Below are positions 47,489 to 50,184 of a stretch of DNA of 64,000 bases, piece by piece. The DNA is from Candidatus Chloroploca asiatica (GTDB lineage: Bacteria; Chloroflexota; Chloroflexia; Chloroflexales; Chloroflexaceae): assembly GCF_002532075.1 (NCBI RefSeq), contig NZ_LYXE01000059.1, positions 1 to 64,000 on the forward strand, read 5' to 3'. The stretch's first letter is position 1. The number at the start of each line of letters is the position of its first letter. The position numbers and the translations under genes are program-made. The notes beneath the pieces are model-generated. The model was not told the origin of the DNA. It worked only from the letters and a program-made list of their open reading frames with translations, and searched no databases.

Positions 47489-48685
47489 TCAAATCACCAG
47501 AACCCCACCAGCACGCCGCCCGATCACATAACACCGCTCGCCTGCCCTGGCAACGTCGGTGAGCAGGTAGCGCCCCTCGGTAAAGCCGAGCTGCTCCGTC
47601 AAGATGGTGTCGGTGACGGTGCGCCAGCGCAAGGCGAGGGCAAGATCGGTGTGTTGCATGGTTGTCCAGTCGGCGGGGATTTCGATGGCAATAGCCGCAG
47701 CATTGCCAGGGGTGGCGATGGGGGTGAAGCCATCGTTGAGGATGGCAAGGTCGGGGAAGTCGGTCAGCGCGGCGACGGCTGAACGCGCTGGGGGCTCAAC
47801 CAGGCCGCCTTGCCCATGGGCCGAGCGGGGTAACCAGACGAGGCCGAGCCGCGAGGCGGGTACGCGATTTAAGCTGTTCCGAAAGGGGTAGTAGTCTGGA
47901 TAACAGGCCCCAGCTACCGCTCGCAGGCGTCCAAAGTTGAGCCTGGCATTGCCAAATTGCAGGGGATCGACGGTCCAGTGGATCAGATCCAGCCCCTGGG
48001 CCAGCACCTGCCGGGCCTGGTACCGCTTGAGCATGACGGCAAGGCCCATTCGCCGTGCCTCGGGCGCAATGCCCATCACTTGTGATTCGACCGCGAGATC
48101 GTGACGGTATGGCAGAGTAATCTCGTTCAGGGCAGCCAGGCCAAAGCGGTAAAAGCCAAGCAGGAAGCCAACCACCTGGTCATGATAGCGTGCCACCAGC
48201 GAGGTGGCGGGCTGAAACGAGGCACTGTGCAGATCATCCGGGTAACGCGCTGCCGCTGAGCCACCCCAGATTGCTTCGTGCAACCCGCGGATCGCGGCGA
48301 GTTCGTGAGGTTCTGGTGCGCCGAGATCAAAGGGGCCATCAAGATGGTGCGAAGGCACCCCAGGTGGGGGGCGGGTGGGATCATGCCAGATGAGACGATC
48401 AGGGGCAAGCAGCGCCTCGATCTCCCCCCGCACAAGCGCACCCGGATCGGGCATCCGTGCTGTGTACAAACGCTGACCCTCGTGCAGGCCTCGCGGGAAG
48501 AGCAGGGCAAACGCATCGTTCGCCCGGTTGAGAAGCAAGCGGCCCCCCATCCTGGCAAAGGTCGTTTTGACAAAATAGTCGGGGGGCAACTGAACAGCAG
48601 ATGGATCGGCCTCGGCATAGAGTGTGTTGATCAGGGTTGACCAGGTGGTGGCCTCAGGCTCAACCAAGTGCCAGGTGGTGCGCAT
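47489..48685 (-). CDS. GNAT-superfamily acetyltransferase (COG3375-like)
   Basis: 398-residue protein. An N-terminal region (1-135) precedes a GNAT fold whose acetyl-CoA signature is SQVMGIAPEARRMGLAVMLK near residue 215, followed by LIHWTVDPLQFGNARLNFGRL and GACYPDYYPF, sequence typical of the COG3375 group. The C-terminal 100 residues have another beta-rich part. Its substrate is unknown. The ATG at 48685 overlaps by one base the stop of a tiny repeat-protein gene (TAATG), so translation is coupled to it. This tight link suggests that the two act together or that the acetyltransferase modifies the repeat protein. Confidence 0.85.
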   Translation of the reverse strand: MRTTWHLVEPEATTWSTLINTLYAEADPSAVQLPPDYFVKTTFARMGGRLLLNRANDAFALLFPRGLHEGQRLYTARMPDPGALVRGEIEALLAPDRLIWHDPTRPPPGVPSHHLDGPFDLGAPEPHELAAIRGLHEAIWGGSAAARYPDDLHSASFQPATSLVARYHDQVVGFLLGFYRFGLAALNEITLPYRHDLAVESQVMGIAPEARRMGLAVMLKRYQARQVLAQGLDLIHWTVDPLQFGNARLNFGRLRAVAGACYPDYYPFRNSLNRVPASRLGLVWLPRSAHGQGGLVEPPARSAVAALTDFPDLAILNDGFTPIATPGNAAAIAIEIPADWTTMQHTDLALALRWRTVTDTILTEQLGFTEGRYLLTDVARAGERCYVIGRRAGGVLVI

Positions 48686-48963
48686 TATGCTTCACTGCTC
48701 CGCCAGCGGCGTCCGAGAATCTTGCCTGAACCACCGACACTGAGGATCGAACCGGCACTGCCGATGCTCAAAATCGAGCCAGCACTGCCAATGCTCAAAA
48801 TCGAACCAGCACTGCCGATGCTCAAGATCGAACCAGTGCTGAAAGCACTCAAAATTGACCACGAACTAAACGCACTGATAATTGACCAGGCGCTAAAGGC
48901 GCTGAGGATTGACCACGTACTGAAAGCACTGCGGATCCCGTCGCGGAGTGAAGAACGCTGCAT
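48685..48963 (-). CDS. Small nonapeptide-repeat protein
   Basis: 92 residues, of which 15-77 are seven perfect-length nonapeptide repeats of consensus S-x-x-S-I-L-S-x-x, in two flavours: STWSILSAF-like (first three) and SAGSILSIG-like (last four), with a partial unit on each side. There is no signal peptide. The ends are basic (MQRSSLRDGIR and KILGRRWRSSEA). The regular spacing suggests a beta-solenoid or a self-assembling Ser-rich fibre. The ATG at 48963 has GAGGT six nt upstream, and the stop overlaps the GNAT start, which argues for a real gene. The family is not one I can name. Confidence 0.7.
   Translation of the reverse strand: MQRSSLRDGIRSAFSTWSILSAFSAWSIISAFSSWSILSAFSTGSILSIGSAGSILSIGSAGSILSIGSAGSILSVGGSGKILGRRWRSSEA
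48733..48921 (-). repeat. 27-bp in-frame tandem repeat coding the nonapeptides
   Basis: Seven units of 27 bp. The four units nearest 48733 (ending in Ile/Val-Gly) are almost identical at DNA level (GAACCAGCACTGCCGATGCT type), while the other three are diverged, so part of the array looks recently amplified. Copy number may vary between strains. Confidence 0.85.
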
Positions 48964-48986
48964 TGATCTACCTCGCTGAAGTCATA

Positions 48987-48995: not shown

Positions 48996-49029
48996 CACCC
49001 TATTCTATCGTGAATAGGACGGAGATGTG

Positions 49030-50184
49030 ATGTCGATCCTGCCCTCTGACGCACTTGAGGCTGCACTCAAGCGTCGTGATGAACTCTTGACCTTGGCCGA
49101 GACGCTGGTTACCTATGATACTCCGAGTGATGACAAAGTGCGTTGTGATGCGCTGGCCGATGAACTGGCCGCCAGGTATGCCCCTCTGGGAACCGTTGAG
49201 CGCATGAACAACCCCCAGGGCGGCGACCACCTGCGCATCCGCGTTGCCGCGCCTGGCGTCACCAACGAGGTGAAACCGGTCTTGATCCTCTGCCACTACG
49301 ATACCGTCTGGTCAGCCGGAACCGTTGCCCAACGCCCGATGTATGTTGAAGGCGACCGCGCCTTTGGGCCGGGTCTCTATGATATGAAAGTCAGTCTCGC
49401 AATGGCGGAGCTTGCCCTGCATAGCATCAAAGAGCATGCGTGGCCCCTGGCACGTCCGGTCGTCCTGCTGCTGACCTCCGACGAAGAGATTGGCAGTCCG
49501 ACCTCGCGGGCCTTGATTGAGACAACGGCCCGTGAGGGCAATCATGTCCTGGTGCTTGAGCCACCCGTCGAGCCTGACGGTGCGCTCAAGACGGCCCGCA
49601 AGGGCATCGGGATGTTCAATGTGACCATCACGGGACGGGCAGCGCATGCGGGTGTTGAGCCAGAAAAGGGGGCGAGTGCGATCAGCGAACTTGCCTACCA
49701 GATTCTCGCGATCCACGCGCTCGCTGATCACGCTGCAGGAACGACAACCAATGTCGGCATTGTACAGGGCGGGACACGGCGCAATGTGGTGCCCGCCGAG
49801 GCCCGTATGGAAGTGGATGCCCGCGCCTGGACAAGCGCTGAGGCACGTCGTCTGGAGGAGGCCTTCCAGAATTTGCGTCCTGTGACCCCTGGGGTGCAAG
49901 TCGAAGCCACAGGGAGTTTCAGCCGACCACCGATGGAACGCACCCCTGCCTCACGCCAACTCTTTGCCGAAGCACGCCGTCTGGGGGCCGACCTGGGCTT
50001 GAACCTCGGCGAAGGGGCAACGGGCGGCGGTAGCGATGGCAACTTCACCGCAGCCCTAGGCATTCCTACGCTCGATGGACTGGGTGCCCCGGGCGAAGGT
50101 GCTCACGCCGAGCACGAGCAGATCAGTATCTCGGGGGCACTCGAACGCATGGCGTTGTTGATTATGCTGTTGACTCACATGTAG
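49030..50184 (+). CDS. M20 family metallopeptidase (glutamate carboxypeptidase-like)
   Basis: 384-residue cytoplasmic di-zinc peptidase. Ligands and active site are visible in LILCHYDTVWSAG, GPGLYDMKVSLAMAE, LTSDEEIGSPTSR, and the C-terminal GAHAEHEQISISG; the lid domain has GRAAHAGVEPEKG. It resembles the carboxypeptidase G2 branch that removes C-terminal glutamate or related residues. The ATG at 49030 has GGAG at five nt; a GTG one codon earlier is also possible. It is divergent from the nonapeptide-repeat/acetyltransferase pair. Confidence 0.9.
   Translation: MSILPSDALEAALKRRDELLTLAETLVTYDTPSDDKVRCDALADELAARYAPLGTVERMNNPQGGDHLRIRVAAPGVTNEVKPVLILCHYDTVWSAGTVAQRPMYVEGDRAFGPGLYDMKVSLAMAELALHSIKEHAWPLARPVVLLLTSDEEIGSPTSRALIETTAREGNHVLVLEPPVEPDGALKTARKGIGMFNVTITGRAAHAGVEPEKGASAISELAYQILAIHALADHAAGTTTNVGIVQGGTRRNVVPAEARMEVDARAWTSAEARRLEEAFQNLRPVTPGVQVEATGSFSRPPMERTPASRQLFAEARRLGADLGLNLGEGATGGGSDGNFTAALGIPTLDGLGAPGEGAHAEHEQISISGALERMALLIMLLTHM

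Follow-up and report, generated by a model that had tools for sequence, protein, structure and literature searches.

The serine-triplet gene and its surroundings

The minus strand of the window (the whole stretch of 64,000 nucleotides of the Candidatus Chloroploca asiatica contig that was analysed) carries at positions 48685..48963 an open reading frame of 92 amino acids, with an ATG start and a TAA stop. The encoded protein, MQRSSLRDGIRSAFSTWSILSAFSAWSIISAFSSWSILSAFSTGSILSIGSAGSILSIGSAGSILSIGSAGSILSVGGSGKILGRRWRSSEA, is basic at both its N- and C-terminal ends and contains one lysine. The repeat region proper (48733..48930, residues 12-77) consists of 22 uninterrupted S-x-x triplets, within which seven nonads of the form S-x-x-S-I-[LI]-S-x-x can be read. 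A triplet score of 22 was reached by none of 20,000 composition-preserving shuffles of the protein, the shuffle maximum being 10. At the DNA level, 27-bp tandem repeats are found at 48746-48836 and 48842-48931. The window has another tandem repeat at 260-448, where a GC-rich 66-bp unit is present in 2.9 copies with 95% matches.

A first-pass annotation of this DNA described the product as a tiny nonapeptide-repeat protein. The repeat ORF and its seven nonads are indeed present, but the nine-residue period stands only as a superperiod; the basic period is three residues, with Ser at every third position. For the non-Ser residues, family-wide identity amounts to 0.56 at a lag of 9 residues and 0.48 at one of 18, compared with about 0.22 at lags of 3 and 6. 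The ribosome site proposed in the same annotation is supported by the ribosome-binding region (48964..48978, minus strand; AGCGAGGTAGATCA-ATG), which contains a plausible Shine-Dalgarno sequence, AGCGAGGT-AGATCA-ATG, with GAGGT six bases before the ATG.

The gene that follows on the minus strand (47489..48685) encodes a GNAT-like acetyltransferase of 398 amino acids, which scores 19.6 bits against PF00583, just under the curated cut-off of 20.7. As had been described, the two genes overlap by one base at 48685: in the sequence TAATG, the A that ends the repeat-ORF stop also begins the GNAT ATG. This ATG is preceded at twelve bases by GGAG, located within the repeat ORF. On the plus strand, a divergent gene for an M20-family peptidase (49027..50184) forms part of a syntenic block of the genus and of genome G012. 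Between the M20 gene and the repeat/GNAT pair lies the perfect palindrome CCTATTC-N6-GAATAGG (48999..49018), the sole match in the window when up to two mismatches are allowed, with 0.1 expected by chance. The palindrome is intact in genome G002 and its right half is changed in G001; it is a possible operator.

Selection and choice of strand

Orthologues of the repeat protein in two congeneric genomes are 98% and 95% identical to it, the second being the same protein as the Candidatus Chloroploca record L072, and both genomes retain the ORF, the overlap, the GNAT gene and the divergent M20 peptidase. Pairwise omega values among three congeneric genomes are 0.028, 0.066 and 0.067 for the repeat ORF and 0.189, 0.142 and 0.177 for the GNAT gene, while the M20 peptidase shows 0.10-0.13 in the same comparisons. 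The changed codons of the repeat ORF between G000 and G001 comprise 22 synonymous and two non-synonymous ones. The first-pass annotation had named two ways in which the small ORF might fail as a gene, namely no selection on its protein and no conservation beside the GNAT gene in relatives. On both counts the ORF holds: omega is 0.028-0.067, and the ORF is conserved with its overlap in several genera.

It should be pointed out that an ORF with LPMLKIEPA repeats is open on the plus strand (48668-48979), opposite the repeat gene. Sense and antisense omega are equal for the G000/G001 pair, and omega fails to separate the strands there because the wobble positions coincide. In the G000/G002 and G001/G002 pairs, however, sense omega is 0.066 and 0.067 against antisense values of 0.145 and 0.140. 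A broader comparison comes from 78 loci, in which the conserved Ser mixes AGY and TCN codons at each Ser of the unit (AGC 647, TCG 459, AGT 271, TCC 167, TCA 64 and TCT 28). Read in the antisense frame, these conserved serines would become Leu in 918 cases, Glu in 362 and Asp in 356, and that frame is interrupted in 25 of the 78 loci. Since Ser is kept in these relatives despite the switching between AGY and TCN, the open antisense frame is not the selected one. Judged from such codon comparisons, the repeat ORF is a true gene, with strong purifying selection acting on the minus-strand serine protein.

A family scattered over several phyla

At E 0.01, protein and profile searches gave relatives in 17 of the 41 near genomes; leaving out G013, in which no S-x-x repeat ORF was seen, makes this 16. 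Within the window's own phylum relatives are present in 22 of 301 genomes. The Actinomycetota have them in 24 of 346 and the Cyanobacteriota in eight of 244, figures that fall to about 20 and to seven when GSV-type minisatellites are removed; all such prevalence counts vary with the E-value cut-off and with the genomes drawn. In these two phyla, the hits L153, L157, L158, L169 and L172 were rejected as GSVGSV minisatellite ORFs and L154 as a false positive. Weak hits in the window's own genome at C126 (L002-L004), together with the matching hits in G002, are not relatives; they proved to be PGSPTATSE-type linkers or an unrelated frame.

A scan of named-species genomes yielded at least 51 confirmed loci in Chloroflexota, Actinomycetota, Cyanobacteria and others. 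The carriers among the matches listed include Streptomyces, Kribbella, Nocardia, Rhodococcus, Salinispora, Microlunatus and Acidimicrobiales in the Actinomycetota; Leptolyngbya, Nodosilinea, Phormidium and Gloeocapsopsis in the cyanobacteria; and a Dormiibacter MAG as well as single MAGs labelled Acidobacteria and Verrucomicrobiota. The contig L101, labelled ‘Proteobacteria’, was not accepted as a carrier from that phylum; its repeat ORF is the same as that of L039, and the genome collection places L101 in Chloroflexota. A check of ten carrier genomes spread over several phyla found a single locus in each, and in the cyanobacterial genome G694 a family locus is found on two contigs. The viral contigs searched contained no relative. 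Among plasmids, the single one found lies on a Nocardia farcinica replicon of 2.66 Mb that is listed as a plasmid (L218, NZ_LN868939.1, about 1788362-1788634), at a position where the distributed gene table, itself very incomplete, lists no gene. By its similarities the repeat ORF can be assigned to a scattered and usually single-locus family of Chloroflexota, Actinomycetota and Cyanobacteriota.

One hundred distinct members have a median length of 102.5 amino acids and a median of 22 triplets. Position 1 of the triplet is Ser in 97.5% of cases, a value inflated and partly built in, as the register was set by maximising Ser; position 2 is Ile, Ala or Val and position 3 Gly or Leu. The repeat region contains 3.9% charged residues and 0.1% Pro, and each flank carries a net charge of about +2. 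A hydrophobic C-terminal tail is present in 20 of the 100 members, mostly actinobacterial, and is missing from the window protein. Start codons of the relatives are guesses, and simple ORF rules served to call the gene neighbours. Among the longer forms noticed, the clearest is a Chloroflexota ORF (L043:985-1743) with a coiled-coil-looking N-terminal segment followed by a serine-triplet region and a polar tail; it has no significant hit in Pfam. The number of units is labile, with copies in genus g4 showing none, two, two, three and about five, and genome G311 has a repeat remnant beside its GNAT gene. This lability suggests dispensability.

The GNAT gene was found in 23 of 61 near genomes. 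In 12 of the 23 GNAT-bearing genomes, all of the window's own bacterial family, the repeat ORF lies directly upstream (G000, G001, G002, G012, G014, G327, G020, G328, G005, G007, G311 and G096), mostly with an overlap of 1 to 4 bases. The pairing persists at GNAT identities down to about 50%, those in other genera being about 50-57%, and the coupling is therefore old within this bacterial family. The remaining 11 GNAT genomes have no upstream repeat ORF. Of the 16 Chloroflexales genomes with the repeat gene, eight show no GNAT gene next to it; in G018 both genes are present, on different contigs. In the carriers inspected from other phyla no GNAT gene adjoins the repeat gene, and an inspection of neighbours across phyla revealed no gene family that recurs widely beside it. 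Same-strand neighbours elsewhere encode a short-chain dehydrogenase, a beta-lactamase-fold protein, an AMP-binding enzyme and a PLP enzyme, or else an SMC-type ATPase, a methylmalonyl-CoA mutase with a TIR protein, a fumarase/lyase and others. For the greater part of the relatives, the repeat ORF is not tightly coupled to a downstream gene. In one Anaerolineae MAG (L065:1361-4072) the order is methylmalonyl-CoA mutase, serine-triplet ORF and a TIR-domain protein with a ThsB-like PADLOC match, the last of which overlaps the serine-triplet ORF by 14 bases.

The 38 members compared with Pfam at E 0.01 matched no family there, RTX, pentapeptide and hexapeptide repeats included. PHROG has no family matching the repeat protein, PADLOC (anti-phage defence) gave no match to it, and NCBIfam offered no fitting family beyond weak matches to HxsA4. 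PDB matches to kinesin light chain, CDC27 and Nup54 cover short stretches and were judged coincidental low-complexity similarities. The literature, searched by motif and by descriptive wording, yielded no account of the repeat family. The earlier impression that no family of this kind had been described is thus upheld by these databases and the literature, and within what was searched the family is apparently undescribed. Serine-rich repeat adhesins also have Ser-rich repeats (PMC6973325); they are exported, O-glycosylated adhesins of the cell surface, whereas the window protein is small and has no evident signal peptide.

Possible structures and functions

Tentatively preferred here, as the foremost of several readings though still short of probable, is a structural rod that self-assembles and associates with the membrane. 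It would bear a stripe of serines between two hydrophobic faces, and its ends would be basic or serve as membrane anchors. With three residues per turn, as in a 3-10 or polyproline-II-type helix, the serines would come to lie in one polar stripe, and the two remaining faces of the rod would be hydrophobic and built of small residues. The rod might pack side by side with its own copies, on the cytoplasmic membrane or within it, with the basic ends or a tail anchor keeping it in place. In the window's bacterial family the repeat protein is probably co-translated with the GNAT via the stop/start overlap, an arrangement that would keep the two in a fixed ratio.

Features of the sequence suggest the rod, its membrane link and its self-assembly, and the three-fold shape rests on geometry and not on predicted structure. 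In the window protein the serine moment reaches 0.33 at 120 degrees per residue and does not exceed 0.04 at the other angles tried; the peak is an arithmetic consequence of the triplet spacing, and it points to a three-fold helix or assembly and not to an amphipathic alpha helix. Several points speak against the rod. A clear membrane anchor is missing from most Chloroflexota and cyanobacterial members, the hydropathy of the repeat is no more than borderline, and the number of units is labile. AlphaFold2, moreover, gives no confident repeat fold. The window protein, modelled with an alignment of 38, has a pLDDT of 49 and a low-confidence helix over residues 6-36, and a member with about a dozen units, modelled from the single sequence, has a pLDDT of 46 and only a 35-residue C-terminal helix. 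Strict three-residue periods with a small residue at position 1 are known from the snow flea Gly-x-x antifreeze protein and from collagen-like G-x-y sequences. The triplet period of the repeat family is likewise compatible with a three-fold helix, but its constant residue is Ser and not Gly, there is almost no Pro, and there is no sequence match.

A three-fold rod, if confirmed, would introduce a structural principle new to bacterial scaffolds. The fuller proposal, that of a new bacterial structural class, is rather unlikely as it stands. Under it, a three-per-turn serine-striped rod, with a single locus in each of its scattered carrier genomes of Chloroflexota, Actinomycetota and Cyanobacteriota, would assemble with its own copies at the membrane and, in the window's family, be tuned by a co-translated GNAT. 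The repeat protein is a clean target, being under tighter selection than its neighbours and recurring across several phyla as one locus in each genome, yet neither a family entry nor a paper was found for it. The repeat is so simple that one result on fold or localisation would do much to explain the whole family.

Ranked below the rod come a beta-roll or amyloid, then a membrane peptide, then a GNAT substrate. The first of these, a beta-solenoid or amyloid-like fibre in which the nonads form a roll or cross-beta structure with rows of Ser, is possible though on the doubtful side. The nine-residue superperiod, the small and beta-branched residues and the near absence of Pro and charge would all suit it. 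RTX repeats, which form a calcium-binding beta-roll, are also nine residues long; the repeat protein, however, has no GGxGxD motif and no match to any Pfam repeat family. In addition, no stacked-coil solenoid was seen in either AlphaFold2 model (both with a pLDDT under 50), even for the member of about a dozen units, and an every-third-residue pattern gives no fixed alternation of inside and outside in a strand.

It is unlikely that the Gly/Ser/Ile/Leu repeat inserts into the membrane as helices that form a pore or modulate a membrane complex. The hydropathy of the repeat is near the transmembrane threshold (Kyte-Doolittle mean about 1.45 in the best 19-residue window, which is borderline), the flanks are basic, part of the family has tail anchors, and the low-confidence helix of the window protein would also fit. 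Designed channel peptides of the LSSLLSL type similarly combine Ser with aliphatic residues at borderline membrane hydropathy, but their heptad spacing creates a polar face on an alpha helix. Ser at every third residue spreads evenly round such a helix and leaves no polar channel face, as seen in the serine moment of 0.02 at 100 degrees.

The two-part system suggested in the first-pass annotation, in which the repeat protein is a dedicated scaffold substrate that the GNAT modifies by acetylation or another acylation, is more unlikely still. The overlapping or near-overlapping pair is real, occurring in several genera even where the GNATs are only about 50-57% identical. The notion of a dedicated modifier fares worse, given the unpaired half of the Chloroflexales carriers, the 11 GNATs without a repeat ORF and the want of a GNAT neighbour in the carriers inspected from other phyla. 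The window protein offers a single lysine, and serine acylation by GNATs is uncommon. The distribution of the genes indicates that the GNAT is a local association of the repeat gene and not the family's defining partner, and a model of scaffold and modifier would describe at most a local adaptation.

A modified peptide precursor, RiPP-like and comparable to the His-Xaa-Ser protein HxsA, is very improbable. Eighteen of the 38 members match HxsA4 (NCBIfam NF038313) weakly, the best at 4e-5, and the HxsA4 proteins are likewise small, with a name-giving repeat that includes Ser and has a three-residue period. The repeat family, however, has no His-x-Ser motif and the scores seen are far under the cut-off of 55 bits, at 14.6 for the window protein and 24.1 for the best member among them (L009). 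The HxsB maturase (TIGR03978) is over its cut-off in none of 12 carrier genomes, where the radical-SAM hits are sub-threshold as in controls, and no conserved maturase adjoins the repeat gene. These scores and the lack of an HxsB over cut-off in the genomes tested imply that the repeat family is not an Hxs system.

Even less can be said for a leader ORF that is translated solely to control the GNAT gene after it, by serine-codon attenuation or by coupling; the overlap with the GNAT start would agree with it, but the amino-acid pattern is conserved beyond Ser, the Ser codons are mixed, and the tight coupling downstream is missing in most relatives. Hardly credible, finally, is the view that the sense ORF is fortuitous, arising within a 27-bp minisatellite or opposite an antisense gene, as might be imagined from the period-27 DNA and the open antisense frame, in view of the codon-level selection on the sense frame in two genome pairs, the radical flips from Leu to Glu or Asp and the many broken antisense frames. 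Gene finders may pick the wrong strand at such loci, and ORFs like the LPMLKIEPA one could be mis-annotated in databases.
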